Positions 1,560-31,371 of a stretch of 64,000 nt of DNA are shown piece after piece; within the stretch, counting starts at the first letter, position 1, and every line of letters starts with the position of its first letter. Origin of the DNA: Herbidospora galbida. GTDB lineage: Bacteria; Actinomycetota; Actinomycetes; Streptosporangiales; Streptosporangiaceae. The position numbers were made by a program, and so were the translations under genes. The notes beneath the pieces are model-generated. The model did no database searches. It worked only from the letters and a program-made list of their open reading frames with translations, and was not told the DNA's origin. Location: NCBI RefSeq assembly GCF_005233835.1, contig NZ_SZQA01000032.1:1-64000 (forward strand), written 5' to 3'.

Positions 1560-1859
1560 TGTCGTACACCCCCATGAGAAGCGAGACGCGGACTGCCGAA
1601 GGCAGGCCGTGGCTCGCGCTGCGAATCTGCCTCGAACAATTGCCGCTTCTGGGCTCGCGGTCGCGCGGCGCCCCGTCGGCTAGACAGTCCCCACCCTCGG
1701 TCGACCGCCGCCGAGAACTATGGCGGAGAGCCGACCCGTCCGGCCAGGTCCCCATCCGCAGACCGCGTCTCGTGGCACCTGACACCGGGGAAGGTGCATC
1801 AGGTACCCGGCGGGCGGGTGGAGACCTCGCCGAACGTCACCGACGGGTCATTTCGAAAG
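1560..1859. other. Gene-free spacer between mraZ and rsmH, 300 bp
   Basis: No open frame here has coding character or a ribosome site. The spacer holds copy A of a 52-base hairpin repeat (1580-1631) close to the rsmH start. A spacer this long is large for two adjacent genes of one cluster, so rsmH may have its own promoter here, but I cannot point to a convincing -10/-35 pair. Confidence 0.6.
1580..1631 (+). repeat. Hairpin repeat, copy A
   Basis: A 52-base element also found at 27556-27607 and 31319-31371 (both on the minus strand). Copies A and B are both 52 bases and differ at five positions. Element positions 2-38 fold into a long hairpin: a GCGAG/CTCGC base, a CGG/CCG middle and a five-pair tip closed on the loop GAA; the last 14 bases are a conserved tail ending AATCTGCC. 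In copy A the tip pair at element positions 15 and 25 is T-A, in copy B it is G-C: a compensatory change. It resembles REP-type palindromic elements; no transposase is nearby. Confidence 0.85.
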
Positions 1860-2291
1860 TCACAGGATCCCTGGCAACACCTCCTCGGACAGGTCGGCGA
1901 ATGCCTGCTCCTGGTCGGCGAGATAGGCCTCCCACGCCGGGGCGGCCCAGATCTCCAGCCGGGTGTTGGCGCCGATGACCACGCAGTCACGATCGAGCCC
2001 GGCGTACTGGCGCAGGCCGGACGGGATGGTGACGCGCCCCTGTTTGTCGGGGGTCTCATCGGAGGCACTGGCGAAGAAGACGCGGCTGTAGTCGCGGACG
2101 GCCTTGGCGGTCACCGGCGCGGTGCGCAAAGCCTCAGTGATGCGCTGGAACTCCTCTACGGGGAAGACGTAGAGGCAGCGCTCCTGGCCTTTGGTGATCA
2201 CAAGACCCTCCGCCAGCTCCTCGCGATACTTCGCCGGCAGGAACAGCCGTCCTTTGTCATCGAGGCGCGGGTGGTGAGTGCCGAGGAACAC
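1860..2291 (-). CDS. mraZ: Transcriptional regulator MraZ
   Basis: Product of 143 aa, exactly the usual length. MraZ is an AbrB-fold DNA-binding protein that forms ring oligomers and represses the division and cell wall cluster. Both conserved DxxxR motifs are present: D11 to R15 (DDKGR) and D82 to R86 (DKQGR), one per AbrB half. The start is the GTG at 2291, giving the canonical [16 protein letters not shown]-terminus with GGGAGGTGG just upstream; an ATG further upstream (2309) is part of that ribosome site region and gives a non-homologous extension. Its own promoter carries four direct repeats fitting MraZ boxes. Confidence 0.97.
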
Positions 2292-2341
2292 CGGCGCCAC
2301 CTCCCGTGCCATGGGGAACACGAAGCCCTACAGCCACGGTC

Positions 2342-2377
2342 CTCCATTGGGCTCCACCATACTCCACTTCTCTCCAC
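2342..2377 (-). promoter_or_regulatory. Four-unit MraZ box array
   Basis: Read on the minus strand, four hexamers GTGGAG, GTGGAG, GTGGAG and ATGGAG begin exactly ten bases apart (plus-strand positions 2372-2377, 2362-2367, 2352-2357, 2342-2347). Known MraZ operators are tandem TGGGN-like repeats with a ten-base period upstream of mraZ. The array covers the spacer and -10 of the mraZ promoter, which fits direct autorepression. Confidence 0.85.
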
Positions 2378-2383
2378 CGTCAA
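2356..2383 (-). promoter_or_regulatory. mraZ promoter
   Basis: -35 TTGACG at 2383-2378 and -10 TATGGT at 2361-2356, 16-base spacer. The expected start is near 2349, giving a leader of about 55 bases before the GTG of mraZ. Two MraZ units sit inside the core promoter. Confidence 0.65.
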
Positions 2384-2702
2384 CTGATTCAAACGGTATG
2401 ACGATCTCGTTTATCGGGCGTTTTCGCAGGTCAAATGCGGTGGTGCGAAGTGGGGCGCCGGAGCGGCGCGGGCGTGTCGCGCTCACCGGCGTCAATGCGA
2501 AGGCGTCAAGGCGCGGGCCCGGCGTGTCACGGAATCCAGACTGGCGTACCACACGATCCGGACCGGCTAGCACGACACTGTGGGCAGTTCACGCTTCTTT
2601 CTGCACAAAGTCGCCGGAGAACCACGTGCGGCATAGTCTCGGTACTCACAATGGATAAGAAATGGCAAACCCCCAGCAATACGGCACGCCCTTGGAGGCC
2701 CG

Positions 2703-3689
2703 GTGGCAGTAACTCACGGCGTCGGTGACAAAGCCGGCTCGGAGAGTCTCAACGAGCTGGTCGAGACCGCGCACCGGATCCGGGACGCGATCGAATCCGT
2801 CATCGAAGGCAAGAGCGACGTGGTTCGGCTGACGCTGACCGTATTGCTCGCGGAAGGTCACCTTCTCATCGAAGACGTACCGGGTGTGGGAAAGACGATG
2901 CTCGCCAAGGCGTTGGCGAAGTCGATCGACTGCCCCATGCGCCGCGTGCAGTTCACCCCCGACCTGCTCCCCTCCGACATCACCGGCGTGAGCGCCTACA
3001 ACCAGCAGACCCGGGAGTTCGAGTTCAAGCCCGGTCCGGTGTTCGCCAACATCGTGGTCGGCGACGAGATCAACCGGGCCTCGCCGAAGACCCAGTCGGC
3101 CCTCCTGGAGTGCATGGAGGAGCGGCAGGTGACCGTCGACGGCCTCACCCACCGGCTCGACGCGCCGTTCATGGTCATCGCGACCCAGAACCCCATCGAG
3201 ATGGAGGGCACCTATCCCCTCCCCGAGGCGCAGCGCGACCGGTTCACCGCGAAGATCGCCATGGGCTACCCCGAGCCGGTGGCCGAGCTTGAGATGCTCG
3301 ACGTGCACGGCGCCTCGCAGCCGCTCGACAAGCTGGAGCCGGTCGCCACCACCGCCGAGGTGAAGTCGCTGATCGAGGCGGTCCGCGCGGTCTACGTCTC
3401 ACAGCCGGTGAAGAAGTACGCCATCGACCTGGTCACCGCCACCCGCCAGACCCCCGACCTGCGGCTCGGTGCCTCCCCGCGCGCCACGCTGCAGCTGGTC
3501 AGGGCGGCCCGCGCGCACGCCGCGCTCTCGGGCCGTGACTACGTGATCCCCGACGACCTCCAGGACCTCGCGGTGCCGGTCCTGGCCCACCGCCTGCTGC
3601 CCAGCATGGAGGCGCAGGGCCAGCGGCGGACGCCCGAGCAGTCGCTCGCCGAGCTTGTGCGCCGCATCCCGGTGCCCGACACGAAGTAG
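2703..3689 (+). CDS. MoxR-family AAA+ ATPase
   Basis: Product of 328 aa. Walker A PGVGKT at residues 60-65, Walker B ending in GDE with D121-E122, and the ATQNP sensor-1 stretch near 160 are intact, with a C-terminal AAA lid. MoxR ATPases act as chaperones that activate partner proteins, often ones with von Willebrand A domains. The GTG start at 2703 has GGAGG four bases upstream. It heads a three-gene operon with a DUF58 protein (11-base gap) and a transglutaminase-like membrane protein, a conserved actinobacterial arrangement. The DUF58 protein is the likely client, but the cellular target is unknown. Confidence 0.93.
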   Translation: MAVTHGVGDKAGSESLNELVETAHRIRDAIESVIEGKSDVVRLTLTVLLAEGHLLIEDVPGVGKTMLAKALAKSIDCPMRRVQFTPDLLPSDITGVSAYNQQTREFEFKPGPVFANIVVGDEINRASPKTQSALLECMEERQVTVDGLTHRLDAPFMVIATQNPIEMEGTYPLPEAQRDRFTAKIAMGYPEPVAELEMLDVHGASQPLDKLEPVATTAEVKSLIEAVRAVYVSQPVKKYAIDLVTATRQTPDLRLGASPRATLQLVRAARAHAALSGRDYVIPDDLQDLAVPVLAHRLLPSMEAQGQRRTPEQSLAELVRRIPVPDTK

Positions 3690-3700
3690 GACTCCTCTCT

Positions 3701-4939
3701 ATGACCGGACTCAGGGCGCTCACCGCCCGGGGCAGGTCGTTCCTCGCTTCTGGGATCGCCGCCCTGGTGTGCGCGTTCCTGCTCGGGGAGCACGACCTCA
3801 TCCGGGTGGCGATCCTGATCGTCGCGCTGCCGCTGCTGGCCGTGATGGTCGTGGCGCGGACCCGTTACCGGCTGAGCTGCGCGCGCCGCCTCGACCCCTC
3901 GCGGGTCGAGGCCGGCAACGACAGCACGGTCACGCTGCGGCTGGAGAACGTGACCCGGCTGCCGACCGGCCTGCTCCTCATCGAGGACACGCTCCAGTAC
4001 GCCCTCGGCACCCGCCCCCGGTTCGTGCTCGACCGAGTGGAGGCCAAGGGGATCCGCGAGATCGACTACAAGGTGCGGTCGGACCTGCGCGGGCGTTACT
4101 CCATCGGGCCGCTGTCGGTGCGCATCACCGACCCGTTCGGCCTGGTCGAGCTGGCCCGCACGTTCACCGCGACCGACTCCCTCGTGGTGACCCCGCAGGT
4201 CATCCCGCTGCCCTACGTGCGCCTGTCCGGAGAGTGGGCGGGCGGGGGCGACAGCCGTACCCGATCGGTGGCGGCCGCGGGCGACGACGACGTCGCCCCG
4301 CGCGACTACCGGCAGGGCGACGACCTGCGCCGGGTGCACTGGCGCTCGACCGCCCGGTACGGCGAGCTGATGGTGCGGCGCGAGGAGCAGCAGTGGCAGA
4401 GCCGCGGCGCGCTCCTGCTCGACACGCGGCGGCCCGCCCACCGGGGCGAGGGGCCGCGTTCGTCGTTCGAGGTCGCGGTCTCGGCGGCGGCCTCCATCGG
4501 CGTGCACCTCGCGCACGAGGGGCTCGGGCTGCGGCTGGTCACCGACCAGGGGCCGCAGCAGCTCATGGAGGGCGGCGTGCAGGCCTCGCTGCTCGACACG
4601 CTCGCGGTGGTCCGCAACAGCCAGGCCCGCTCGCTGTCCAACGGCATCGCCGGGCTGCGGCAGGGCGGCGGCGAAGGGCTGATCGTGGCGGTCCTCGGGG
4701 CGCTCGACCTCGACGACGCCCAGTCGCTGGCGCGGCTGCGGCACGGCCACATGACCGGCGTCGCGGTGCTGCTCGACGTCGCGACCTGGGAGGGCGGCTC
4801 GGAGGGCGAGGTCTCCCCCGAACACGAGCAGGCGCAGGCGGTGCTGGCCGCGAGCGGCTGGCGGGTGCTGCGGCTGCCCGCCGGGGTGTCGCTGGCCTCC
4901 ATCTGGCCCGACGCCGCGTACAAGAGGAGTGCCGCGTGA
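3701..4939 (+). CDS. DUF58 domain-containing protein
   Basis: Product of 412 aa. Two N-terminal hydrophobic segments (about residues 12-50) are followed by a beta-rich region and the DUF58 signature RDYRQGDDLRRVHW at about 201-214. The DUF58 C-terminal half adopts a von Willebrand A-like fold, and such proteins are typical partners of MoxR ATPases. It ends in an ATGA overlap with the next gene, implying translational coupling. Biochemical role unknown; placement with MoxR and a transglutaminase suggests assembly or remodelling at the envelope. Confidence 0.92.
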   Translation: MTGLRALTARGRSFLASGIAALVCAFLLGEHDLIRVAILIVALPLLAVMVVARTRYRLSCARRLDPSRVEAGNDSTVTLRLENVTRLPTGLLLIEDTLQYALGTRPRFVLDRVEAKGIREIDYKVRSDLRGRYSIGPLSVRITDPFGLVELARTFTATDSLVVTPQVIPLPYVRLSGEWAGGGDSRTRSVAAAGDDDVAPRDYRQGDDLRRVHWRSTARYGELMVRREEQQWQSRGALLLDTRRPAHRGEGPRSSFEVAVSAAASIGVHLAHEGLGLRLVTDQGPQQLMEGGVQASLLDTLAVVRNSQARSLSNGIAGLRQGGGEGLIVAVLGALDLDDAQSLARLRHGHMTGVAVLLDVATWEGGSEGEVSPEHEQAQAVLAASGWRVLRLPAGVSLASIWPDAAYKRSAA

Positions 4940-7500
4940 TGCGACTGCCGATCGCTTCGGGGGCGGCCACCGGGGCCGTCGCGCTCACCCTTTATCCGTT
5001 GTTCGCCGACGGCTCGTGGTTCTGGGCGACGCTCGGCATCCTGCTGTGCACGACGCTGGCGGCGGCGCTGGTGTCGCGTTACGCGCAGCCCGCGTTCGCG
5101 GCGCCGGTCGGGATGGCGCTGGCGGCGATCGTCTTCATGACGGTCACCTTCGCCCGCGACGAGGCGTGGTGGGGGTTCATCCCCAACTTCGACTCCACCG
5201 CCCGGATCGCCCAGACGATGGCCGAGGGCTGGGACGAGATCCAGAAGTTCGCCGCGCCGGTGCCGTCGACCGGTGGCATCAGCCTGCTGACCGCCGGCGG
5301 GGTCGCGTTCATCGCGATCCTGGTCGACGCGTTCGCGGTGCGGGTGCGCCGGGCGGCCCTGGCGGGCCTGCCGCTGCTCGGGCTGTTCACCGTCCCGGCC
5401 GCCGTGCTCAACGAGCCGATCGCCTGGCCCGCGTTCATCATCGGCGCGCTCGGGTTCGTCGGCCTGCTGGTCTCCGACGGGCGCGAACGGGTGTCCCACT
5501 GGGGCCGGGCCGTGCTGGTACGGCGTTCGCGTACGACCACCACCACCCCCGACGCGGGCAAGCTCGTCCTGTCGGGCAAGCGCATCGGGGTCACCGCCGT
5601 GGCGCTGGCCATCGGCATCCCGGCGCTGATCCCCACGCTGACGCCCAACCCGCCGTTCGGGTTCGGGGTCGGCAACGGCCTGGGGCCGGGCGGCCGCAAC
5701 GTCGGCATCCCCGACGCCATCGCCAAGCTCAGCGGGCAGCTGTCGCACCCGGTGAACGCGCCGGTGCTGACCTACACGTCCAAAGACGACGTGCCGCGCT
5801 ACCTGCGCATCTACTCCCTCGACGAGTTCGACGGGCAGCAGTTCAAGTCGAGCTCGCTGCGCGGGCGTCCCGAAGACCGGGTGAGCGAGAGCGTCATGCC
5901 GCCCGCGCCGGGCCTGTCGCCCATGACGCCGGGGACGCCCATCGACCAGACCATCACGGTCAGCGAGGACATCGAGGAGCTGCGGTTCCTGCCGCTCCCC
6001 TACCCGGCCACCCGCGTCATCGCCGACGGCGACTGGCGGGCCGACCGCAACACCCTCATGGTGTTCTCCACCGAGGACGACGCGGCCGGGCTCGAATACC
6101 AGGTCATCGGCAAGGACGTGCGGCCCACGCCCGAGTTGCTGGACAACGCCCCGATGGCGCCGATCGAGGTGCAGGGCCGCTTCCTGACGCTGCCCGCCGA
6201 CATCGACCCCGCCGTCGTCGCGCTGGCCGACGACGTCACCCGGGGCGCGGCCACCAAGTACCAGATGGCGGTGAAGCTGCAGGAGTGGTTCACCCGGACC
6301 GGCGGGTTCACCTACGACCTGCAGACCAAGGGGTCGGGGCTCGACGCGCTGACCGACTTCCTGCTGGTCGGCAAGTCGGGCTACTGCGAGCAGTTCGCCA
6401 GCGCCTTCGCGGTGATGGCGCGCGTGCTGGGCATCCCGTCGCGGGTGTCGATCGGCTACACCGGCGGCACCAAGTCGGAGGGCCGGTGGATCGTCCGGAC
6501 CCACGACGCGCACGCCTGGCCGGAGCTCTACTTCGAGGGCGCCGGATGGCTGACCTTCGAGCCGACGCCGGCGGGCGGGTTCGGGCAGGCGACGGCGCGG
6601 GTGCCGTCGTACACGCTGCCGCAGTCCGACTCCGCCGAGCCCTCGTCGGGGGCGTCGGCGAGGCCGTCGAGCGACCCGGCGTCCTCGCCGGGGGCGAGCA
6701 ACCCGGCGCGCGGCGTCAACAACGCCGAGCGGGAGCTCGGGCCGACCGGTCTGCCGGCGGTCGAGGAGAGGTCCATCTGGGTGAACGTCGGCATCGGCGT
6801 CGCCGTGGCGCTGCTGCTGTCGCTGATCCCCGCGGTCATGCGGGCGGTGCTGTGGCTGTGGCGGCGGCGGGTGCTCAACCGGGCCGCGGCCGTGCCCGAC
6901 GACGAGGTGCCCGTCGTCAAGCCGAAGAAGGACGACGACGACGGCTGGAGCGGCGGCGAGGTGATCGGCGGGGAGCCCGCTGAAAAGCCCCTGTCGGTCT
7001 GGGCCGTCGCCGAGGAGCCGGTGGCGCCGCCGAAGCAGGAGAACACCTTCGCGGCCCCGGCCGTGGAGGCCGCCTGGGCCGAGCTCTGCGACACGCTGGT
7101 CGACCTGGGCATGCCCAAGGCGGGCAGCGAGACGCCCCGGGCGCTGGGCCGGCGGCTGGCGGCGGCCTACCCCCTCGACACCGAGGCGGCCAAGGCGCTG
7201 AACAAGATCGCCACCAGCGAGGAGAAGCTGCGGTACGCCCGCACGCCCGGCGAGGTCACGCCTCTGGTCGACGACCTGAAGGCGATCAGGCGCGGCCTGG
7301 CGGCGTCGGTGTCGCGGGGGCGGCGGGTCGCGGCGGTGCTGGCGCCCATGTCGTCGCTGCTGCGGGTGCGCGGCCTCGGCGAGCGGGTGCTCGACGGGTT
7401 CGACCGGCTGGAGAACATCCGGCTGCGGCCAGCGCGAAAGGAACCCGAGACCGCGACCACCGACGACGTGCTGGAGTCACAGGTCGGGTCGCGGCGGTAA
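4939..7500 (+). CDS. Transglutaminase-like membrane protein (TgpA family)
   Basis: Product of 853 aa. The N-terminal ~220 residues hold several membrane segments (TgpA_N/DUF3488). An external transglutaminase core follows, with the catalytic Cys483 in GYCEQFA and His525 in DAHAWPE, then FEPTP supplying the third site. A Ser/Pro-rich linker, one more membrane helix (about 615-640) and a C-terminal cytoplasmic DUF4129-like region complete the protein. The start is ATG at 4939, overlapping the DUF58 stop; GTG at 4936 is in frame and equally served by the GAGGAG at 4924-4929. Third gene of the moxR operon. Family members are thought to act on peptide bonds or crosslinks outside the membrane; the substrate is unknown. 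Confidence 0.92.
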   Translation: MRLPIASGAATGAVALTLYPLFADGSWFWATLGILLCTTLAAALVSRYAQPAFAAPVGMALAAIVFMTVTFARDEAWWGFIPNFDSTARIAQTMAEGWDEIQKFAAPVPSTGGISLLTAGGVAFIAILVDAFAVRVRRAALAGLPLLGLFTVPAAVLNEPIAWPAFIIGALGFVGLLVSDGRERVSHWGRAVLVRRSRTTTTTPDAGKLVLSGKRIGVTAVALAIGIPALIPTLTPNPPFGFGVGNGLGPGGRNVGIPDAIAKLSGQLSHPVNAPVLTYTSKDDVPRYLRIYSLDEFDGQQFKSSSLRGRPEDRVSESVMPPAPGLSPMTPGTPIDQTITVSEDIEELRFLPLPYPATRVIADGDWRADRNTLMVFSTEDDAAGLEYQVIGKDVRPTPELLDNAPMAPIEVQGRFLTLPADIDPAVVALADDVTRGAATKYQMAVKLQEWFTRTGGFTYDLQTKGSGLDALTDFLLVGKSGYCEQFASAFAVMARVLGIPSRVSIGYTGGTKSEGRWIVRTHDAHAWPELYFEGAGWLTFEPTPAGGFGQATARVPSYTLPQSDSAEPSSGASARPSSDPASSPGASNPARGVNNAERELGPTGLPAVEERSIWVNVGIGVAVALLLSLIPAVMRAVLWLWRRRVLNRAAAVPDDEVPVVKPKKDDDDGWSGGEVIGGEPAEKPLSVWAVAEEPVAPPKQENTFAAPAVEAAWAELCDTLVDLGMPKAGSETPRALGRRLAAAYPLDTEAAKALNKIATSEEKLRYARTPGEVTPLVDDLKAIRRGLAASVSRGRRVAAVLAPMSSLLRVRGLGERVLDGFDRLENIRLRPARKEPETATTDDVLESQVGSRR

Positions 7501-7516
7501 TACCGGAACAAACGAG

Positions 7517-7546
7517 CGGGCTCGGGGCGTGTCAGCCCCGGGCCCG
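7517..7546. terminator. Terminator after the moxR operon
   Basis: Twelve-pair stem (7517-7528 with 7535-7546, one T-G pair) and six-base loop GTGTCA, followed by a short T-rich stretch. It lies between the convergent transglutaminase and DUF3040 genes and may serve both strands. Confidence 0.75.
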
Positions 7547-7584
7547 TCGTCTTTCCACGATTACTGTGGCGTGTGATGCGGCGG

Positions 7585-7983
7585 CTAGCGCTCGTCGTTA
7601 CGACGGCGCCAGCGCTCCTCCATGCGCTCCATGAAGCCGGGACGGCGCCCACGGCGGGCGGCCGGCCCCTGCTGCTGCGTGGACGTGGCGGAGCGGCTGT
7701 CGCCGTGGAAACCGTTCATGCGTTTCCAGCTGGACAGACCCCACAGACACGTCGCGAGCATGACCACAAAGCCGGCGACCCCGAGCCAGATGACGGTGGA
7801 CACGACGCCGACCATCAGCAGGACGACGCCGAGTGCGAAGCCGATGGAGGCCTTCACCAGGCGGCGCTTGTAATGGCTGCGTGGGTCACTGATCCGGACG
7901 GTATTGGCCCACTTCGGGTCCTCGGCATAGAGGGCCTGCTCGATCTGGTCGAGCAAGCGCTGCTCGTGCTCAGACAGCGGCAC
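7585..7983 (-). CDS. DUF3040 domain-containing membrane protein
   Basis: Product of 132 aa. The N-terminus PLSEHEQRLLDQIEQAL is the classic DUF3040 signature, followed by two close hydrophobic segments (about residues 42-85) and a basic C-terminal tail. These small actinobacterial membrane proteins have no known function. The GTG at 7983 is chosen because it gives the family N-terminus and has GGGAGG upstream; an upstream in-frame start at 8007 would add eight non-homologous residues. A second DUF3040 gene lies at 59079. Confidence 0.88.
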   Translation of the reverse strand: MPLSEHEQRLLDQIEQALYAEDPKWANTVRISDPRSHYKRRLVKASIGFALGVVLLMVGVVSTVIWLGVAGFVVMLATCLWGLSSWKRMNGFHGDSRSATSTQQQGPAARRGRRPGFMERMEERWRRRNDER

Positions 7984-8092
7984 GGCGCCTCCCAAGGACG
8001 GCCCCAAGACGGGGAAGACGGCAACGAACGAAGGATGTCCGAACCCTGCGGTCGGTTATCCCCAGAATACGAGTCTGTAGACGTGGGCGAAA

Positions 8093-8168
8093 GAAAACGG
8101 TCAGAACGTCCACAAGCGCGGTCCAATGCGGAGGTGACGTCATAGATCCATTGGACCAAACCGTTTTC
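8093..8168. repeat. Nested inverted repeats at the 3' end of dinB
   Basis: Outer arms GAAAACGGT (8093-8101) and ACCGTTTTC (8160-8168), and inner arms GGTCCAATG (8120-8128) and CATTGGACC (8149-8157), are both perfect. The inner loop is 20 bases. The structure spans the dinB stop codon (8140-8142) and encodes the last residues of DinB. It could be an RNA terminator-like fold or a pair of DNA operators for the DUF3040 gene downstream. Confidence 0.7.
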
Positions 8169-9378
8169 GGACGAGCGAGGCGGGGCGGACCGCATCCGGT
8201 CCGAACCTCCGGATCGCCTTGTCCATGGCCTGTTCCGCCTCCCGCCAGCCGATCTCGCGGTCTCCCAGGCCGATTTGCCTGGTCGCCGTGTCTGCCGGGC
8301 GGAGGTTCTCCATCCGGACGCCTACGAGTCGCAGCCGCACTCTATCGAGACCTGCGGCCCTGTAGAGGTCGCAAGCGGTGGTATGTATCTCTTTCGCCAC
8401 ATCTGTGGCCTCTCGGAGGGTACGCGACCGCGTGATGGTCGTGAAATCGGACCGGCGCAGCTTCACGCTGACGGTCCGGCCGACGTAGCCGGCGGCGCGC
8501 AGCCGGGCGGCGACCCGCTCCGAGAGCCGGAGCAGCTCCCGCATGATCGTCTCGGGGTCGTCGACGTCGTGGGCGAAGGTCTCCTCGTTGCCGATGCTCT
8601 TGTCGGGGACGTGGGCGGTCACCCGGCGCTCGTCACGGCCCCACGCCAGCGCCGCCAGATGGCTCCCCGCGGCCCCGAACTCGCGCTGGAGCGTGGCAAC
8701 CGGCACCCGGGCAAGGTCTCCCACCGTCTTGATGCCCAGCCGCGTCAGGGCCTGCTCAGTGCGTTCGCCCACGCCCCACAGGGCGGCCACCGGGAGCGGG
8801 TGGAGGAAGTCGACCACGCCGTCGGCCGGGACGACCAGGAGGCCGTCGGGCTTGCACTGGCGGGAGGCGAGCTTGGCCACGAACTTGGTGGACGCGACCC
8901 CGACCGAGCAGGTCACCCCGAAGCGCTCGGCCACCTGGGCCCGGATCGCCGCCGCCACCTGAACCGGGGACCCCAGCCTGCGGCGGGCGCCGCCGACGTC
9001 GAGGAAGGCCTCGTCGACCGAGAGCGGCTCCACGAGCGGGGTGACCGCGTGGAAGATCTCGAAGACGCCCTTGGAGATCGCGCCGTATTTGCCGTGGGAG
9101 GGCGGGATGACCGTCGCCTGCGGGCACAGGCGCATCGCGCGGGTCATCGGCATCGCCGAGTGGACCCCGAACCGGCGGGCCTCGTAGGTGGCGCTCAGCA
9201 CCACGCCCCGCGCCCCGGCGGCGCCGACGATCACGGGGGTGCCCGTGAGCTCCGGCCGGTCGATCAGCTCGACCGCCGCGAAGAACGCGTCCATGTCGAC
9301 GTGGAGGATCGGGCAGCCGGTGTCATCGGCCTTCCCAGTAGGGGTGGTGACCTGCGGCAACACCTGTTTCCTCGACAT
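8140..9378 (-). CDS. dinB: DNA polymerase IV (Y family)
   Basis: Product of 412 aa. An error-prone translesion polymerase. The palm acids are visible: HVDMDAFFA with D28, and SVDEAF with D122-E123. Finger and thumb regions (GVASTKFVAKLAS; LWGVGERTEQALTRLGIKTVGDLA, a helix-hairpin-helix) and a little-finger domain to about residue 385 follow. No clear QLxLF-type clamp motif is seen at the C-terminus, which ends in basic residues encoded within an inverted repeat. There is no ribosome site: the -10 TAGACT lies six bases before the ATG, so the mRNA is probably leaderless, and a LexA box sits directly upstream, so expression should be DNA-damage induced. Confidence 0.95.
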   Translation of the reverse strand: MSRKQVLPQVTTPTGKADDTGCPILHVDMDAFFAAVELIDRPELTGTPVIVGAAGARGVVLSATYEARRFGVHSAMPMTRAMRLCPQATVIPPSHGKYGAISKGVFEIFHAVTPLVEPLSVDEAFLDVGGARRRLGSPVQVAAAIRAQVAERFGVTCSVGVASTKFVAKLASRQCKPDGLLVVPADGVVDFLHPLPVAALWGVGERTEQALTRLGIKTVGDLARVPVATLQREFGAAGSHLAALAWGRDERRVTAHVPDKSIGNEETFAHDVDDPETIMRELLRLSERVAARLRAAGYVGRTVSVKLRRSDFTTITRSRTLREATDVAKEIHTTACDLYRAAGLDRVRLRLVGVRMENLRPADTATRQIGLGDREIGWREAEQAMDKAIRRFGPDAVRPASLVRKRFGPMDL

Positions 9379-9384
9379 GGCGCG

Positions 9385-9406
9385 AGTCTAACCGAACAGA
9401 GGTTCG
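9385..9406 (-). promoter_or_regulatory. dinB promoter with LexA (SOS) box
   Basis: CGAACAGAGGTTCG at 9393-9406 matches the actinobacterial SOS box core CGAAC-N4-GTTCG perfectly, with the flanking A at 9407 also matching. It abuts the -10 TAGACT at 9390-9385, which ends six bases before the dinB start. LexA bound here would block polymerase. Confidence 0.9.
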
Positions 9407-10309: not shown

Positions 10310-10369
10310 GGTGATCCTCCGAAAAGTCGACGACGACGTAGGCACGCCAGCCTACGCCGCCGCCGGAGC

Positions 10370-22307: not shown

Positions 22308-22313
22308 CTGTCC

Positions 22314-22359: not shown

Positions 22360-22365
22360 CGCCGG

Positions 22366-22989: not shown

Positions 22990-23028
22990 TGAGGGCGGTC
23001 CACTCACCGCTCTCTGCGAGGTTCCCGT

Positions 23029-23850
23029 ATGTCCGTCGTCGAGCTGGCGCGCCCGGTTGGGAAACCGCGCGCCACGCCGAAAGGGCCGCGGCGCCGCGTC
23101 ACCGCGTGGCATCGCTGGCTGAGCCCGCTCGCCCTGCTCGTGATCTGGCAGATCGCCAGCGCGACCGGCCTGCTCCCCGAACGCCTGCTGGCCGCACCGG
23201 CCACTATCGCCTCCACCGCCGTCGAACTGACCCAGGCGGGGACGCTGCCGACCGCGATCGGGGTCTCGCTCCAGCGGGTGCTGATCGGCTTCCTGGTCGG
23301 CGGCGCGGCCGGAATCCTGCTGGCCCTGGTCGCGGGGCTGAGCCGGGCGGGTGAGAACGCGGTCGACCCGATCATGCAGGCGCTGCGGGCGCTGCCGTTC
23401 TTCGGCCTCATCCCGCTGTTCATCCTCTGGTTCGGCATCGGCGAGGAGCCGAAGATCCTGCTGGTGGCCCTGGCGGTGTCGTTCCCCCTCTACCTGAACA
23501 CCTTCTCCGGCATCCGGGGCGTCGACGGCAAGCTCGCCGAGGTCGCCAAGACGCTGAAGCTGTCGCGCGGCCAGCTGATCAGGCACATCGTGCTGCCGGG
23601 CGCGCTCCCCCAGACGCTCGTCGGGCTGCGGCAGGCCCTCGGCGTGGCCTGGCTGGCGCTGATCGTGGCCGAGCAGGTGAACGCGACCACCGGCCTCGGC
23701 TACATGATCAACGACGCCCGGGAGTTCCTGCGCACCGACGTGATCGTGGTCGGGCTGCTCGTCTACAGCGCGCTGGGCCTGGCCACCGACGCGATCGTCC
23801 GGCTGCTGGAGAGGAGGGCGCTGGCATGGCGACGCGGCTTTCTGGCGTAG
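23029..23850 (+). CDS. ssuC: Sulfonate ABC transporter permease SsuC
   Basis: Product of 273 aa with about six membrane segments and the binding-protein-dependent permease loop (EVAKTLKLSRGQLIRHIVLPGALP, key Gly in SRGQ) that contacts SsuB. The RALPFFGLIPLFILWFGIG stretch is typical of the nitrate/sulfonate/taurine permease family. First gene of ssuCBAD. Sulfonate specificity is inferred from ssuD in the same operon. Confidence 0.93.
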   Translation: MSVVELARPVGKPRATPKGPRRRVTAWHRWLSPLALLVIWQIASATGLLPERLLAAPATIASTAVELTQAGTLPTAIGVSLQRVLIGFLVGGAAGILLALVAGLSRAGENAVDPIMQALRALPFFGLIPLFILWFGIGEEPKILLVALAVSFPLYLNTFSGIRGVDGKLAEVAKTLKLSRGQLIRHIVLPGALPQTLVGLRQALGVAWLALIVAEQVNATTGLGYMINDAREFLRTDVIVVGLLVYSALGLATDAIVRLLERRALAWRRGFLA

Positions 23851-24521
23851 CGCGCGCGTTCGGCGACCGGGTCGTGCTCGACTCGCTCGACCTGGAACTG
23901 CGCGACGGCGAGTTCACCGCCCTGCTGGGCCGCAGCGGCTCCGGCAAGTCCACCCTGCTCCGGGCCCTGGCCGGGCTCGACGACGAGGTCACCGGGAAGA
24001 TCGACGTCACCGACTCGGTCGCGGTGGCCTTCCAGGAGCCCCGGCTGGTGCCGTGGAAGCGGCTGCTGGCCAACATCACCCTCGGGCTCGACGCCCCCGC
24101 CGACAAGGCGAAGGCGGCGCTGGCCGAGGTCGCGCTGACGGAACGTTCCGACGCCTGGCCGCTCACCCTCTCGGGCGGGGAGGCGCAGCGCGCCAGCCTG
24201 GCCCGCGCGCTGGTCCGCGAACCCGAACTGCTGCTGCTGGACGAGCCGTTCTCCGCCCTCGACGCCCTCACCCGGATCACCATCCACCAGCTCGTGCTGG
24301 AGCTGTGGGCCCGGCACCGCCCCGCCGTGCTGCTCGTCACGCACGACGTGGACGAGGCGCTGCTGCTGGCCGACCGGGTGCTGGTGCTCGACGAGGGCCG
24401 CATCGCCCACGACATCTCCATCACGGCCGACCGTCCCCGCCACCGCGAGGACCCGGACCTGGTCACCCTGCGAACCATCCTGCTCGCCGCGCTCGGCGTC
24501 TCACCCGAAGGAAGATCATGA
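23826..24521 (+). CDS. ssuB: Sulfonate ABC transporter ATP-binding protein SsuB
   Basis: Product of 231 aa. Walker A GRSGSGKST at 35-43, Q-loop FQEPRLVPW, signature LSGGEAQR, Walker B LLLLDEPF and the switch His in VTHDVDEAL are all intact. Powers sulfonate import with SsuC. It overlaps the ssuC 3' end by 25 bases and ssuA by four. Confidence 0.95.
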   Translation: MATRLSGVARAFGDRVVLDSLDLELRDGEFTALLGRSGSGKSTLLRALAGLDDEVTGKIDVTDSVAVAFQEPRLVPWKRLLANITLGLDAPADKAKAALAEVALTERSDAWPLTLSGGEAQRASLARALVREPELLLLDEPFSALDALTRITIHQLVLELWARHRPAVLLVTHDVDEALLLADRVLVLDEGRIAHDISITADRPRHREDPDLVTLRTILLAALGVSPEGRS

Positions 24522-25483
24522 AACGCGCACTGCTGGCCGCCGTCCTGCTGCTGGCCGCCGCCGCGTGCGGCGCCCCGTCCACCGACGCCGGCGGCGCCTC
24601 CGAAGGGACGATCACGTTGCGCGTGGGCGACCAGAAGGCCGGGTCGCAGGCACTGCTGAAGGCGGCCGGGCTGCTCGACGGCGCCCCGTACAAGATCACG
24701 TTCGCCCAGTTCACGTCGGGGCCGCCGCTGCTGGAGGCGATCAACGCCGGGGCCGTCGACATCGGCGGCGTGGGCAACACGCCCCCGATCTTCGCGGCGG
24801 CGGCCGACTCGAAGATCAAGATCGTGGCGGCCTACAAGCAGAACGTCACGGGGGCGGCGGTGGTCGTACCGGCGAACTCGACCCTGACCAGCCCGGCCGA
24901 CCTCAGGGGCAAGAAGATCGCGGTGGCCAAGGGCAGCTCCTCCCACCACCACCTGCTGTCGGTGCTGAAGAAGGAGGGCCTGAAGTTCTCCGACATCCAG
25001 CCGCAGTACCTCCAGCCCGCCGACGCGCTGGCCGCCTTCTCCGGCGGCACCGTCGACGCCTGGACGATCTGGGAGCCGTTCACCTCGCAGGCGATCCTGC
25101 AGCACAAGGCGAAGGTGCTGGTCGACGGCACCGGCTACGTCAACGGCCTGAACTTCACCGTCGCCGCCCCGGAGGCCGTCGAGACCAAGGCCGACGCGGT
25201 CCGCGACTACCTCACCCGGCTCGCCAAGGCCCGTGAGTGGGCGCTCACCCACAAGCCGGAATGGGCCAAGGTGTGGGCCGCCGAGACCGGCCTGCCGCAG
25301 GAGGTCGCCGACGCGGCCGTCGACAACGCGGTCTCCTCGCCGATCGTCATCGACGACGCGGTGGTCACCTCGGAGCAGGAGATGGCCGACGCCTTCGCCG
25401 CCGAGGGCCTCATCCCGGGCGGCCTGAAGTTCGCCGACTTCGTCGACCAGCGGTTCAACGACATCGTGGGGGCGGCGCGATGA
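24518..25483 (+). CDS. ssuA: Sulfonate-binding lipoprotein SsuA
   Basis: Product of 321 aa. Signal peptide with a lipobox LAAAAC, so Cys17 is the lipidated residue, followed by a type II periplasmic-binding fold of the NMT1/SsuA group (GVGNTPP ligand loop; TIWEPF). Captures sulfonates outside the membrane for SsuBC. ATGA overlaps at both ends. Confidence 0.93.
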   Translation: MKRALLAAVLLLAAAACGAPSTDAGGASEGTITLRVGDQKAGSQALLKAAGLLDGAPYKITFAQFTSGPPLLEAINAGAVDIGGVGNTPPIFAAAADSKIKIVAAYKQNVTGAAVVVPANSTLTSPADLRGKKIAVAKGSSSHHHLLSVLKKEGLKFSDIQPQYLQPADALAAFSGGTVDAWTIWEPFTSQAILQHKAKVLVDGTGYVNGLNFTVAAPEAVETKADAVRDYLTRLAKAREWALTHKPEWAKVWAAETGLPQEVADAAVDNAVSSPIVIDDAVVTSEQEMADAFAAEGLIPGGLKFADFVDQRFNDIVGAAR

Positions 25484-26586
25484 GGTTCCACTGGTTCCTG
25501 CCGACGACCGGCGACGGCCGCTCGATCGTGGCCGGCGGCCACGGCCTGGGCCGCACCCACGGCGACGCCGAATACCGCCCGCCGACGGTCGAATACCTGG
25601 GCCAGATCGCGAAGGCGGCCGAGCAGGTCGGCTTCGAGGCGGTGCTCACCCCGACCGGAACCTGGTGCGAGGACGCCTGGCTCATCACGGCGGCCCTCAC
25701 CCAGGTGACGACCCGGCTGAAGTTCCTGGTGGCCTTCCGTCCGGGCCTGCTCTCCCCGACGCTGGCCGCCCAGATGGCCGCGACCTACCAGCGCGTCTCG
25801 AACGGTCGGCTGCTGCTGAACGTGGTGACCGGCGGCGAGGCGGCCGAACAGGCCCGGTTCGGCGACCACCTGAGCAAGGACGAGCGCTACGCCCGCACCG
25901 ACGAGTTCCTCAGCGTCGTCCGGGGCGCCTGGCAGGGCGGCTTCGACTTCTCCGGCACCTACTACGACGTGACCGACGCCCGCGTCGCCGCCCCGCCGGA
26001 GCCGACCCCGGAGATCTACTTCGGCGGCTCCTCCGGCGCGGCCGGCCCCGTGGCCGCCAAGCACGCCGACGTCTACCTGACCTGGGGCGAACCGCCCGCG
26101 CAGGTGGGCGAGAAGCTCGGCTGGATCCGCGACCTGGCTGCCGCCGAAGGGCGGACGCTGCGGTACGGCGTCCGCCTGCACGTCATCACCAGAGACACCG
26201 CCGAGGAGGCCTGGGCCGAAGCCGGCCGCCTGCTGGAGCGCATCCCGAGCGGCGACATCGCCAAGGCCCGCACGCTGCTGTCGACCAGCGAGTCGGTCGG
26301 CCAGAAGCGGATGCTGGCCCTGCACGAGGGCTTCAAGAGCGGCAAGGCCCGCGACCTGGAGATCCACCCCGGCCTGTGGGCCGGCGTGGGCCTGGTGCGC
26401 GGCGGCGCCGGGACCGCGCTGGTGGGCAGCCACGCGGAGGTCGCCGACCTGCTGGAGGAGTACGCCGCCCACGGGGCGTCCGAGTTCATCCTGTCGGGCT
26501 ACCCGCACCTGGAGGAGGCCTACTGGTTCGGCGAGGGCGTGCTGCCCGAGCTGCGCAGGAGGGGCCTGGTCGAGAAGGCGGCCTGA
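25480..26586 (+). CDS. ssuD: FMNH2-dependent alkanesulfonate monooxygenase SsuD
   Basis: Product of 368 aa, luciferase-like TIM barrel. FHWFLPTTGDGR at the N-terminus, EAVLTPTGTWCEDAW with the active-site Cys (about residue 63) and RLLLNVVTGG are SsuD signatures. It cleaves alkanesulfonates to sulfite and aldehyde using reduced FMN and oxygen. No flavin reductase (ssuE) is in the operon; the FMN reductase at 61446 is distant and not clearly linked. Ends six bases from the convergent PH-domain gene. Confidence 0.93.
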   Translation: MRFHWFLPTTGDGRSIVAGGHGLGRTHGDAEYRPPTVEYLGQIAKAAEQVGFEAVLTPTGTWCEDAWLITAALTQVTTRLKFLVAFRPGLLSPTLAAQMAATYQRVSNGRLLLNVVTGGEAAEQARFGDHLSKDERYARTDEFLSVVRGAWQGGFDFSGTYYDVTDARVAAPPEPTPEIYFGGSSGAAGPVAAKHADVYLTWGEPPAQVGEKLGWIRDLAAAEGRTLRYGVRLHVITRDTAEEAWAEAGRLLERIPSGDIAKARTLLSTSESVGQKRMLALHEGFKSGKARDLEIHPGLWAGVGLVRGGAGTALVGSHAEVADLLEEYAAHGASEFILSGYPHLEEAYWFGEGVLPELRRRGLVEKAA

Positions 26587-26592
26587 CCGGGC

Positions 26593-27045
26593 CTAGTGGT
26601 CGGGCGCCTCGCTCTTGATCTTGATCAACGCGTTCAGTTCGGCCACCGCCCGCGCCGCCCGCGCCTTCTCCGAGCCCTGGATCCCCATCGCCCCCACGAC
26701 GCTCCCGTCGGCGAGGTCGAGGCGGGGCCAGGGCTCGGCGTCCGGCAGGGAGACGCCGAGGATCTCGGCCCACTCGTAGCGGTGCACCCGCACGGCGTTG
26801 ACCACGGTCACGCCGTCGTCGTCGGCCACCACCCGCAGGCGGCCCAGCAGGTGGAGGATGAAGGCGACGGCGCAGCCGAAGACGAAGACCCCGATGCGGT
26901 CGGGCAGGTGGAACTGCTCCGGGAGCACGACCGCCAGGATCAGGGCGCCGCCCACCATGATCGCCGCGAGCGTGTAGGCCACGACGCGGGCCCTCTTCGG
27001 ACGCCAGACGACAGGGAGGGGCGGCGCGGGAACACTCGGGAACAT
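26593..27045 (-). CDS. PH-domain membrane protein
   Basis: Product of 150 aa. Two close hydrophobic segments (about 20-70) are followed by a bacterial PH-like domain (LRVVADDDGVTVVN to the C-terminus). Function unknown. It follows ribH after 11 bases and is therefore the last gene of the rib operon, a conserved actinobacterial placement. Confidence 0.8.
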   Translation of the reverse strand: MFPSVPAPPLPVVWRPKRARVVAYTLAAIMVGGALILAVVLPEQFHLPDRIGVFVFGCAVAFILHLLGRLRVVADDDGVTVVNAVRVHRYEWAEILGVSLPDAEPWPRLDLADGSVVGAMGIQGSEKARAARAVAELNALIKIKSEAPDH

Positions 27046-27056
27046 GAGACCGAACG

Positions 27057-27545
<489 letters not shown>

Positions 27546-28814
27546 TTAATTCTCGGGCAGATTCTCGACGCGAGCCACGGCCGGCCTTCGGCCGTCCGCG
27601 TCTCGCTCGGGGATCTCATGACCAAGTCGGTCACGCTTGGCGTACAGGTACTTCTCGTTGTACGGGTTCACGGCGATCGGCATCGGCTCGCGGCCGAGCA
27701 CCTTGATGCCGTATCCGTCCATCCCCCGCATTTTGGCGGGGTTGTTGGTCAGCAGGCGCACCGATTTGACCCCGAGGTCGCCGAGCATCTGCCCCGCGTT
27801 GGAGAACTCGCGGGCGTCGACCGGCAGGCCGAGTTCGAGGTTGGCGTCGACGGTGTCGTGGCCGTCGTCCTGGAGGGCGTAGGCGCGCAGCTTGGCGAGC
27901 AGACCGATGCCGCGGCCCTCGTGGCCGCGCAGGTAGACGACCACGCCGCGGCCCTCTCCGGCGATGGCGGCCATGGCGTGGTCGAGCTGCACGCCGCAGT
28001 CGCAGCGCAGCGAGCCGAGCACGTCGCCCGTCATGCACTCGGAGTGGGCCCGGACCAGCACGTTCTCGCCGTCGTCGAGGTCGCCGTAGACGAGCGCGAC
28101 GTGCTCGCCGCCGTCGAGGGAGCTGGCGAAGCCGTAGGCCTTCCACATGCCGTAGCGGTTGGGGATGGACGTCTCGGCGACCCGGGTCACCACGCGCTCG
28201 GTGCGGCGGCGGAACTCGATGAGCTGCTCGATGGAGACCAGCGCGAGGTCGTGCTCGTCGGCGAAGGCGCGCAGCTCGGGCAGCCGGGCCATGGTGCCGT
28301 CGTCGTTGGTCACCTCGGCCAGCGCGCCGGCCGGGGTCAGCCCGGCCAGCCGGGCCAGGTCGACGGCGGCCTCGGTGTGGCCGGGCCGGACCAGCACGCC
28401 GCCGTCGCGGTAGCGCAGCGGGAAGATGTGGCCGGGCCGGACCAGCTCGAACGGCTCGGTGGCCGAGTCGGCCAGGGTGCGGATGGTGCGTGCCCGGTCG
28501 GCGGCGCTGATGCCGGTGCTGACCCCGTCACGGGCGTCGACGCTGATCGTGTACGCCGTCCGCATGCGCTCCCGGTTGTCGTTCACCATCAGCGGCAGCC
28601 CGAGCCGGTCGAGGTCGTCGCCCCGCATGCCGACGCAGATGACGCCCGAGGTGTGCCGGATCGTGAAGGCCAGCGTCTGGGCCGTGGCCTTGGACGCGGC
28701 GAAGATGAGGTCGCCCTCGTTCTCGCGGTTCTCGTTGTCGACGACCACGACCGGCTTGCCGTCGCGGATGTCGGCGATGGCCCGTTCGATCGGGTCGAGC
28801 CTGATGTCGTTCAT
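27546..28814 (-). CDS. ribBA: Bifunctional 3,4-dihydroxy-2-butanone 4-phosphate synthase / GTP cyclohydrolase II
   Basis: Product of 422 aa. RibB domain (about 1-205): [11 protein letters not shown], the acidic metal loop, and [13 protein letters not shown]. RibA domain (about 206-400): the zinc cysteines in [17 protein letters not shown] and the [10 protein letters not shown] loop. It makes both precursors, one from ribulose-5-phosphate and one from GTP. The last ~17 codons before the final few are encoded by hairpin repeat copy B, so the C-terminal tail (rich in Arg, Ala and Val, ending NLPEN) is not part of the conserved enzyme. ATGA overlap with ribM. Confidence 0.96.
27556..27607 (-). 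repeat. Hairpin repeat, copy B, inside the 3' end of ribBA
   Basis: 52 bases, five differences from copy A. Lies in frame within ribBA and ends eight bases before the end of its stop codon, so it encodes the protein tail. Same strand orientation as copy C at the other end of the rib operon, about 3.7 kb away. Confidence 0.85.
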
Positions 28815-29443
28815 ACTGCGACGGCCTCCTTCTGCTGCCACTGCTTGCGCCAGTTCACGAATCCGGTGAGGACCAGGACGAAGAACACCGCGTACACCGC
28901 CCCGGAGACGACGAGCCCCGACCGGAAGGCCAGCGGCACCCCGACGAGGTCGACGGCGATCCAGACGAGCCAGAAGTCGGTCAGCGCCCGGCCCTGGGCC
29001 CAGGTCGCGACCGCGCTGCCGACGAAGATGTAGGCGTCGGCCGCCACCAGGAAGTACCCCTCGGGCAGCGGCGCGTGGGCGCCCCACGAGAGCCCGGTGA
29101 CGAAGAAGAACCAGCCCACCAGGGCGGTCCCGACGACGACGGTCCCGGCCAGGAACAGCCGCTCGCCGTACGTCGCGGGCCGCACGGCCAGCTCCTCGCC
29201 CTGGCTCTTCCAGCGCACCCAGCCGTAGACGGCCAGCACGCCGAACAGGACCTGCTTCAGCGCGTTGCCGGTCAGCCCGGCGTCGACCGACGCGGCCAGC
29301 AGCAGCACCGACGCGCTGAGCTGGACCGGCCAGGTCCACAGCGACCTGCGGATGGCGAACACGACCGTGGCCAGGGCCAGGATGTTGCCGATGAGGTCGG
29401 TCCACAGGACGGTCGTCCCGAGGACCTCGAAGCCGGCGTTCAT
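28811..29443 (-). CDS. ribM: Riboflavin transporter RibM (PnuC/PnuX family)
   Basis: Product of 210 aa with about seven membrane segments and the PnuC-family VYGWVRWK and [16 protein letters not shown] stretches. Actinobacterial PnuC homologues inside FMN-controlled rib operons (RibM/PnuX) take up riboflavin by facilitated diffusion. Overlaps ribE and ribBA by four bases at each end. Riboflavin rather than nicotinamide riboside specificity is inferred from the operon. Confidence 0.9.
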
Positions 29444-30027
29444 CGGGCCACCAGCTTCTCGACGTACTTCGCGATGACGTCGGCCTCCAGGTTCACCGGG
29501 TCGCCGGCGACCTTCCGGCCGAGCGTGGTGAGCTGGAGGGTGGTGGGGATCAGGCTCACCGTGAACTCCGCGTCGGAGACCGACGCCACGGTCAGCGACA
29601 CCCCGTCGACGGTGATCGAGCCCTTGTGCACCACGTAGCGGGCCAGGTCGGCGGGCAGGGAGATGGTCACGACCTCCCAGTGCTCGTCGGGTTCCCTCTT
29701 CAGCAGGACCCCGGTGCCGTCGACGTGGCCCTGCACGATGTGCCCGCCGAGCCGCTGGTCGGCGCGGACGGCGCGCTCCAGGTTCACCGGCGAGCCCACG
29801 GTCAGCGCGCCGAGGCTGCTGCGGTCGAGGGTCTCCTTCATGACGTCCACGGTGAAGACGTCGTCACGCACCTCGACGACCGTCAGGCAGACGCCGTTGA
29901 CGGCGATCGAGTCGCCGTGCCCGGCGTCCTCGGTGACCGTGGGGCCGCGGAAGGCCAGCCGGGCCGCCTGCGGGAGGGGGTCGACGGCGACGACCTCGCC
30001 GAGTTCCTCGACGATTCCGGTGAACAT
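29440..30027 (-). CDS. ribE: Riboflavin synthase alpha chain
   Basis: Product of 195 aa with the two tandem lumazine-binding repeats typical of the family: [10 protein letters not shown] and [12 protein letters not shown] in the first, [12 protein letters not shown] and [11 protein letters not shown] in the second. Converts two lumazines into riboflavin and the pyrimidine. Starts two bases after the ribD stop. Confidence 0.95.
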
Positions 30028-30029
30028 GC

Positions 30030-31085
30030 TCAGTTCTCCTTCGGGGGCGCCGGCCGCGCGGTCACGCGCAGGTCCGGTCCAATGGGGACGACGTCTTCGA
30101 ACTCCCAGCGGTGGATGCCGCCGACGCCCGTCACCCCGGCGTCGCCGAGGGCGGCGGCCCCCGAGCCGAGGAACGCGGGCGCCAGGTAGGCGACGACCCG
30201 GTCGACCAGACCGGTGCGCAGGAAGCTTCCGGCGAGGGTGGGGCCGCCTTCGAGGAAGACGCTGACGATCTGACGCCGGTGGAGTTCGGTCAGCAGGGCG
30301 GGCAGGTCGAGGCCATGAGGGCCGCGCGGGACGCGCAGGGCGTCCTCGCGGGGGACGTCGGCCCCGACGGCGAGCAGCGTCGGCGCGGCGCCGTCGAGCA
30401 CCTTCGCGCCGGGGGGTGTACGCCCCTCGCTGTCGACCACCACCCGCAGCGGCGTGGCCGGTCCGGGCCGGACCGTGAGATGGGGGTCGTCGGCCAGCAC
30501 GGTGCCGATCCCCGCCATGATCGCGTCGTGCTGCCCGCGCAGGCGGTGGACGTCGGCGCGGGCCTCGGGCGAGGTGATCCACTGGCTGGTGCCGTCGGCG
30601 GCGGCCGACCGGCCGTCGAGGGTCGCGGCGAACTTCCACGTGACGAACGGCCGCCGCAGCCGCGTGTACGTCAGCCAGTGGGCGTTCCCCCGCTCCGCCT
30701 CCGCCCGCAGGAGCCCGCTCTCGACGGCGACGCCCTCGTGACGCAGCCTCTTCAGGCCGCCGGCCGCGACGGGGTTGGGGTCGGGCACCGCGACGACGAC
30801 CCGCGCGATCCCGGCCTTCAGCAGGGCCTCGGAGCACGGGCCGGTCCGGCCGTGGTGGTCGCAGGGTTCGAGGGTGACGTAGGCGGTGCCGCCCCGGGCC
30901 AGCTCACCGGCCTCGCGCAGCGCCCAGATCTCGGCGTGCGGGCCGCCGGCGGCGGCGTGGAAGCCCTCGCCGACGACGGAGCCCCCGGCGGAAGTGATCA
31001 CGCACCCGACCACCGGATTCGGGCTCGTCGTGCCCAGCCCGCGCGCGGCGAGGTCGATCGCCCGGCGCATGAAGTGGTCGTCCAC
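30030..31085 (-). CDS. ribD: Bifunctional pyrimidine deaminase/reductase RibD
   Basis: Product of 351 aa. N-terminal deaminase with zinc ligands H50 (in PHAEIWALRE, with catalytic E52), C75 (EPCDHHGRTGPC) and C84; C-terminal reductase from about residue 145 (RPFVTWKFAATLDGR, FLEGGPTLAGSF). The GTG at 31085 behind AAGGGA is preferred; an upstream ATG would add 18 residues lacking family similarity. First gene of the FMN-controlled operon. Confidence 0.95.
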   Translation of the reverse strand: MDDHFMRRAIDLAARGLGTTSPNPVVGCVITSAGGSVVGEGFHAAAGGPHAEIWALREAGELARGGTAYVTLEPCDHHGRTGPCSEALLKAGIARVVVAVPDPNPVAAGGLKRLRHEGVAVESGLLRAEAERGNAHWLTYTRLRRPFVTWKFAATLDGRSAAADGTSQWITSPEARADVHRLRGQHDAIMAGIGTVLADDPHLTVRPGPATPLRVVVDSEGRTPPGAKVLDGAAPTLLAVGADVPREDALRVPRGPHGLDLPALLTELHRRQIVSVFLEGGPTLAGSFLRTGLVDRVVAYLAPAFLGSGAAALGDAGVTGVGGIHRWEFEDVVPIGPDLRVTARPAPPKEN

Positions 31086-31142
31086 CCCGGTCCCTTCCCA
31101 AAAATCAGGGCTCCGGGGCATGGGCATGGAAGCGCCCAAAGA

Positions 31143-31173
31143 CGGACGCGCCCCGAAAGAGGGACCTCGTCCG
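31143..31173 (-). terminator. Terminator-like hairpin after the FMN riboswitch
   Basis: Stem CGGACG (31173-31168) with CGTCCG (31148-31143), an inner CCC/GGG pair, and a TCTTT run just after it on the minus strand. It lies directly downstream of the aptamer, so it is a candidate expression platform working by termination; the T-run is short. Confidence 0.5.
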
Positions 31174-31175
31174 CC

Positions 31176-31302
31176 GCGTGCTGCCTCCCATCCGGACTTT
31201 CACCGTCGGTCCTGGAATTCCACCAGGTCAACCGGCCGATGGATTCGGCCGGGTCGCGGACTGTCACCGCCGGTTCGGACTTTCACCGACCCCGGAGCAC
31301 GC
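31176..31302 (-). ncRNA. FMN riboswitch (RFN element)
   Basis: On the minus strand the closing helix is GCGTGC (31302-31297) with GCACGC (31181-31176). Inside are the RFN core elements: GGTCGGTGAAAGTCCG, ACCGGCGGT, AGTCCGCGAC, the GGTGGAATTCC loop, GACGGTGAAAGTCCGGATGG and GGAGG. It binds FMN and reduces expression of ribD-ribE-ribM-ribBA-ribH. Confidence 0.96.
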
Positions 31303-31318
31303 ATTGCTTGTTTCTTAC

Positions 31319-31371
31319 GGCAGATTCACGAACGCGAGCCACGGCTGGCCTTCGGCCGACCGCATCTCGCT
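31319..31371 (-). repeat. Hairpin repeat, copy C, upstream of the FMN riboswitch
   Basis: 53 bases, one base longer than copies A and B. It ends 16 bases before the aptamer, so it overlaps the place where the rib operon promoter should be. I see no good -35/-10 pair here (TAAGAA follows the repeat). Confidence 0.85.

Follow-up and report, generated by a model that had tools for sequence, protein, structure and literature searches.

The window analyzed here is a stretch of 64,000 nucleotides from Herbidospora galbida (contig NZ_SZQA01000032.1, positions 1 to 64,000). It carries three copies of a short palindromic element, named A, B and C below. A first-pass annotation of this DNA had placed them at 1580-1631 (+), 27556-27607 (-) and 31319-31371 (-). 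All three were recovered at these positions, and in each case the family profile adds one base at the start (1579+, 27608- and 31372-). The copies and their surroundings are as follows.

600..1559, minus strand: rsmH (mraW), adjoining copy A (Pfam PF01795)
1579..1635, plus strand: copy A, with the mraW RNA motif on one side and the start codon of rsmH (mraW) on the other; it runs antisense to rsmH
1726..1843, minus strand: mraW RNA motif, near copy A and outside the element (Rfam RF01746, 59.4 bits)
27057..27536, minus strand: ribH, the next gene after copy B (Pfam PF00885)
27546..28814, minus strand: ribBA, which reads through copy B (Pfam PF00926 and PF00925)
27552..27608, minus strand: copy B, at the 3' end of ribBA and directly upstream of ribH, forming the in-frame C-terminal end of RibBA
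31174..31304, minus strand: FMN riboswitch, downstream of copy C and outside the element (Rfam RF00050, 97.6 bits)
31315..31372, minus strand: copy C, a variant with a 53-base core, directly upstream of the FMN riboswitch that precedes ribD

Copies B and C lie within a single run of riboflavin genes (ribD, ribBA and ribH, identified by Pfam), which we infer to be one operon. The FMN riboswitch and the mraW motif were the only matches in the window at Rfam gathering scores, and none was obtained for the element copies themselves. Two of the three window copies adjoin these structured cis-regulatory RNAs (mraW motif, 1579-1843; FMN riboswitch, 31174-31372). Both of them, A and C, are missing from most congeners.

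The family consensus reads AAGCGAGACGCGGACGGCC-GAA-GGCCGGCCGTGGCTCGCG-NNNN-GAATCTGCC-YCRA, followed in the family profile by a fading purine-rich tail. The whole unit is about 57 bp long and consists of (A)AGCGAG, the remainder of the hairpin, GNNNN, the GAATCTGCC box, YCRA and the tail. The hairpin spans 37 bases, with a stem of 15 pairs containing two mismatches and closed by a GAA loop; no U-run follows it in the consensus. The 3' boundary of the element is fuzzy, its boundaries being otherwise conserved. The 14-base tail first described as conserved consists of a G, a very variable 4-base linker and GAATCTGCC.

The fold is supported by covariation of the stem. In an alignment of 47 copies, 97.9% of stem cells were paired, and 5 of the 15 stem pairs displayed changes on both sides, compared to 0.6 in shuffled alignments (none of 500 shuffles scored as high). 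Among 93 full-length copies from the window's own genome, both sides had changed in 24 pair cells, 18 of which were complementary; one-sided changes broke the pair in 60 cases and kept it in 47. Direct reading confirmed five differences between copies A and B over 52 positions, as well as the bases at element positions 15 and 25 (T and A in copy A, G and C in copy B). The first-pass annotation took this as a compensatory change. The stem does covary, but the T-A pair occurs in only 3 of the 47 copies (A, L014 and L026) and may therefore reflect the spread of a single change and not an independent compensation. Each window copy had also been said to fold into a hairpin. This was observed for B and C with short flanks, while for copy A with its flanks a different fold has the minimum energy.

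Divergence from the consensus in the 93 own-genome copies was lowest in the stem (0.05-0.06), followed by the box (0.10), the loop (0.12) and the linker (0.44). Among 24 deep pairs of orthologous copies, changes amounted to 0.039 in the stem, 0.11-0.13 in the flanks and 0.26 in the linker; many of these loci had been fetched by an exact stem pattern, which biases the stem value. We therefore set aside the stem constraint among orthologs as evidence of selection. Presence/absence counts in this set likewise lean towards presence where target loci were fetched for holding copies.

A covariance-model search, proposed with the first-pass annotation, revealed many further copies in the own genome (G000, H. 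galbida, 8.3 Mb) and in six other Herbidospora species (G001-G006). In G000, at least 148 matches were detected among 150 scored candidates, corresponding to at least 145 distinct places, since three matches were the opposite-strand reading of another one. The six congeners gave 72, 56, 74, 73, 97 and 37 matches. The number of matches thus varies four-fold (at least 148 in G000 versus 37 in G001), despite similar genome sizes.

The family appears restricted to this genus. When 84,980 species genomes were searched for an exact pattern, 65 stretches were returned, all 65 of them in Herbidospora and from six species; these were matched to G001-G006 by identical loci, and G000 is none of them. For the right end of the element, 43 exact matches were found versus none for the backwards control, well above what chance would give. 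Right ends standing alone could mark a larger, autonomous parent element. When 120 family genomes were scanned with the covariance model (under stricter filters, with 43 candidates scored per genome among the matches listed), six matched: four were Herbidospora, and the other two had a single weak match each (8.1e-4 and 2.7e-4), which we took as chance. A BLAST scan of 41 genomes led to eight with matches, seven from one genus and one weak (8.6e-4). Copy L010, used as sole query, had no match in plasmids or phages, and one exact pattern had none in viral contigs.

In G000, 34 of the places sit in 13 tandem arrays. Tandem arrays are arranged head-to-tail with a period of 57-60 bp. In several of them (L019:1699-1927, L042, L038 and L030), the inner units lack the AAGC that starts the first unit and repeat every 59-60 bases or so. 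Given these two features, arrays may arise through internal duplication and not through new insertions. In G000, copies were also observed in inverted pairs that enclose genes, at a distance of 0.9-1.5 kb (C34:23806/25304, C28:52695/54331, C95:12190/13086 and C37:70566/71568). Such pairs might mark a hidden composite transposon, a candidate reading for which the ORFs of two pairs were listed.

Empty sites in congeners identify the copies as insertions. The comparison of empty sites, also proposed with the first-pass annotation, gave empty alleles for all three window copies, in four to five species each. Four congeners (G002, G003, G004 and G006) lack copy A, and two (G001 and G005) carry a version truncated at the 5' end. 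Outside G000, copy B occurs in G003 and copy C in G006; in each case, the five remaining congeners have an empty site. Taking sites as independent, the net insert was 54-65 bp at 21 of 22 sites and 45 bp at the remaining one. In a wider set of sites, a few comparisons gave 31-46 or 75-77 bp, attributable to remnants, array differences or other changes.

The dinucleotide AG was found at the empty junction in 11 of the 22 sites, where 4.5 were expected (simulated P 0.00135, AG having been picked after inspection). TA (8 versus 2.2 expected) and AA (7 versus 2.5 expected) were likewise enriched, and the other 11 empty sites have no AG at the junction. At the copy C site, the empty allele reads tcgAAGaaa and the filled allele tcggAAGCGAG...GTAAGaaa; at the copy B site, these are cctGAGgag and cctGAGCGAG...TTAAGgag. 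These two sites suggest a repeat of 2-3 bases around AG, which other sites do not have. Since the junctions are fuzzy, both the ends of the element and the AG repeat are inexact. No fixed left flank was found at the insertions, either in the family profile or in the wider set of sites.

Insertions are mostly extragenic. With a simple codon-usage gene caller, and counting orthologs separately across the seven genomes, only 9 of 199 leading copies fell inside called genes, which cover about 90% of the window. All gene orientations occur around these 199 copies: co-directional (69 and 46), divergent (44) and convergent (25). Of 94 leading copies that follow a gene on the same strand, 51 start between -3 and +2 of its stop codon, 11 start 13-60 bases past it and 24 start farther away. 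In a second test, 52 of 206 leading copies had a junction at which a long coding-like frame ends, versus 19 of 2243 shifted control points (0.85%). The allele without the element already holds a stop codon at all four sites compared (L116, TAG; L255, TGA; L080, TGA; L135, TAG), although the other allele at L255 differs by more than the element; a fifth, L094, was left out as a difference in array length. The stop is retained at the junction (marked by a slash), T/AG becoming T/AAG and TG/A becoming TG/AAG. Because the stop pre-exists in element-free alleles, the element lands on stop codons, and a stop is preserved or rebuilt by its first bases.

Site occupancy varies strongly between close species. 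Between G000 and G005, whose flanks are 90-98% identical, 12 sites of G000 could be compared; the element was present in G005 at three of them (one truncated) and absent at nine. At three further sites, the element is confined to G005, G000 retaining a remnant at one of these; in total, three of 15 sites are common to both species. This count covers contiguous stretches on G000 contigs chosen for holding copies, and leaves out copies with no comparable place, three in G000 (one array) and three in G005. Other copies are shared with a more distant species while the nearer G005 has an empty site. This applies to copy B and L135, common to G000 and G003, and to copy C and L009, common to G000 and G006. 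L124:2098, shared with G002, is empty in G005 too. Near-clean loss therefore looks common, several sites shared across the deepest split being empty nearer by.

The linker gives an indication of descent. The 4-base linker was the same in 12 of 28 orthologous pairs and differed by at most one base in 22 of them, compared to 3.7% and 21%, respectively, for pairs of paralogs. Thus, most orthologous copies stem from one inherited event. Mean core identity was 92.8% in the 28 orthologous pairs (some fetched by stem pattern) and 86.9% in 58 paralogs. Remnants were detected at four sites (copy A in G001 and G005, L029 in G005, L041 in G006 and G005:229997 in G000), in each of which the right-hand part is kept and the 5' part of the hairpin is missing. 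From this we infer that deletion provoked by the palindrome fits better than enzymatic excision. Altogether, the pattern suggests that the family was amplified before the genus arose or early in its history, with repeated near-clean loss. Copy A, found whole or truncated in only G000, G001 and G005, fits a single gain within the genus.

The most probable reading of these data, in which we have reasonable confidence, is a Herbidospora-specific family of REP-like non-autonomous palindromic elements. The hairpin would be the substrate of a DNA-processing enzyme acting in trans, perhaps on single strands. Expansion of the family by this enzyme would have taken place mostly before the radiation of the genus or in its early phase, and the enzyme would now be lost or unrecognized. 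Present-day change would be mostly loss, aided by the position of the palindrome between very short repeats around AG. The element itself is probably non-autonomous. Against this reading, no mobilizing enzyme was identified and no insertion was caught in action.

Patchy presence could also result from short-tract recombination between species or from repeated insertion at one site. Taken further, patchiness would reflect such exchange or hot sites and little true loss, which we regard as a minority possibility. G000 does share copies B and C with a single distant species each. At copy C, 150-bp windows are 94.7% and 96.0% identical to G006 versus 87-92% elsewhere, one of them counting the shared element itself and the other being conserved in all species. 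At copy B, however, G000 is 92-94% identical to G003 in two site windows, within the 90-97% range. Moreover, the shared linkers argue against independent insertion, and the remnants show that loss did occur at four sites.

The element might instead be an RNA hairpin with a function of its own (as 3'-end protector, attenuator or terminator), kept by selection at gene ends and not mainly mobile. Many copies do lie at gene ends, and the stem is both closest to the consensus and least changed among orthologs, the latter in the biased sample described above. However, nine of the 12 comparable own-genome copies are missing from G005 within well-conserved flanks, copies occur in all gene orientations, and the consensus has no U-run after the hairpin. 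We consider this explanation improbable.

The Y1_Tnp profile found no gene in six of the seven Herbidospora genomes, including G000; the first-pass annotation had noted no transposase in the window. The only hit, in G003 (H. cretacea), is an IS200/IS605 transposase (137 bits, cut-off 55), which scores 32.5 bits on REP_Tyr_transpos (cut-off 80). No copy of the element was detected in the 15 kb around this gene, even at E 10. The REP_Tyr_transpos cut-off was reached in none of the seven genomes, with E. coli as control, and the RAYT-type transposase that the first-pass annotation suggested looking for was thus not encountered. As these searches were negative or unlinked to the element, the mobilizing enzyme cannot be named. 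The G003 gene belongs to an IS605-like pair (L167:282-1887), comprising tnpA and a TnpB-like ORF named by eye, which is the only Y1 transposase locus found across the seven genomes.

Several known systems share features with the element. Non-autonomous elements of the IS200/IS605 type carry a hairpin with a 3' tail, leave near-clean empty sites and insert on the 3' side of a fixed short sequence, which they do not duplicate. The hairpin, 3' tail and near-clean empty sites are alike here, but no TnpA was found in six of seven genomes and there is no fixed left flank; AG stands at 11 of 22 junctions, with a possible repeat of 2-3 bases. MITEs derived from DDE transposons display terminal inverted repeats and a target duplication of fixed length; in the Herbidospora element, the inverted repeat stops short of the right end and only the fuzzy AG repeat is seen. 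Integron attC core sites (GTTRRRY / RYYYAAC) were rejected, the left end of the consensus having no GTTRRRY.

In its behavior, the element resembles REPs. The element is a short palindrome with many, mostly extragenic copies; REPs are quoted as 20-40 bp, and the whole Herbidospora unit is longer. As described in PMC3733652 and PMC2817692, GTAG REPs mobilized by RAYTs are likewise short hairpins of high copy number, lineage-restricted and mostly extragenic, with complementary stem changes, and often touch or supply a stop codon (for flanking ORFs, PMC3733652). A classical REP moved by a RAYT (Y1 HUH transposase) would account for the size, copy number and imperfect hairpin. Nevertheless, the consensus ends, (A)AGCGAG and GAATCTGCC-YCRA, have no unpaired GTAG or CGTC tag, the conserved 3' box lies outside the hairpin, no RAYT was found, and the sole Y1 gene is an IS200/IS605 transposase with no copy in the 15 kb around it. 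Arrays are head-to-tail, whereas GTAG REPs are paired in alternating orientation (PMC3733652, PMC2817692). A classical REP is therefore doubtful indeed.

PMC3733652 also describes CGTC-tagged and untagged REP-like repeats, palindromic families without associated transposase genes, the untagged ones including a family in M. tuberculosis; the word Actinobacteria is absent from the text searched. The Herbidospora element is likewise palindromic, no transposase gene having been found with it, but has no CGTC tag, and its likeness to the untagged families is one of description. Since the tag and the transposase were looked for and not found, we file it as REP-like, outside the GTAG and CGTC super-families and RAYT systems. 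The original label, "REP-type or small non-autonomous palindromic" element, fits as regards copy number, genus restriction, covarying hairpin, empty sites and arrays; a RAYT-type transposase is not supported, and the consensus ends have neither tag. Finally, a MIRU-like element, in which a short ORF of the element is coupled to a gene start, has very little to recommend it: mycobacterial MIRUs are also short actinobacterial repeats in tandem units at gene junctions and appear mobile, but they are described as inserting at start codons with a coupled ORF (PMC12548453), whereas the Herbidospora hairpin favors the stop codon and often begins on that of the upstream gene (the 52 of 206 leading copies above).

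Beyond the REP-like family that we favor, a bolder proposal is a new class of stop-codon-seeking palindrome, still turning over in the genus. An enzyme other than RAYT/Y1 would read the hairpin and the GAATCTGCC tail, join at AG and rebuild the stop. We put this forward tentatively, as conceivable but not the expected outcome.

Searching the open-licence literature gave no earlier description of a family of this sort in Herbidospora. Repeats, palindromes, insertion sequences and transposases are not mentioned in the genome paper for the genus (PMC4599437). The family is new, and its kind, REP-like repeats, is already known. What it offers is a high-GC actinobacterial genus with a REP-like family, no RAYT found, and filled and empty alleles across seven species. 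Two questions become testable through these alleles: what moves palindromic repeats devoid of a transposase, and how hairpin elements vanish almost without scars.

By inserting at stop codons, the element can avoid harm to its host; in G000, it rewrote the C terminus of RibBA. The final residues of the protein at copy B (four in the empty allele of G005) are replaced by twenty from the element and tail, giving a new in-frame end ...VENLPEN (window 27546-27608, minus strand). RibBA in the five congeners without copy B ends a few codons past HEIP. In four of these congeners, its stop codon overlaps the ribH start (ATGA), and in G006 a TAA precedes ribH.
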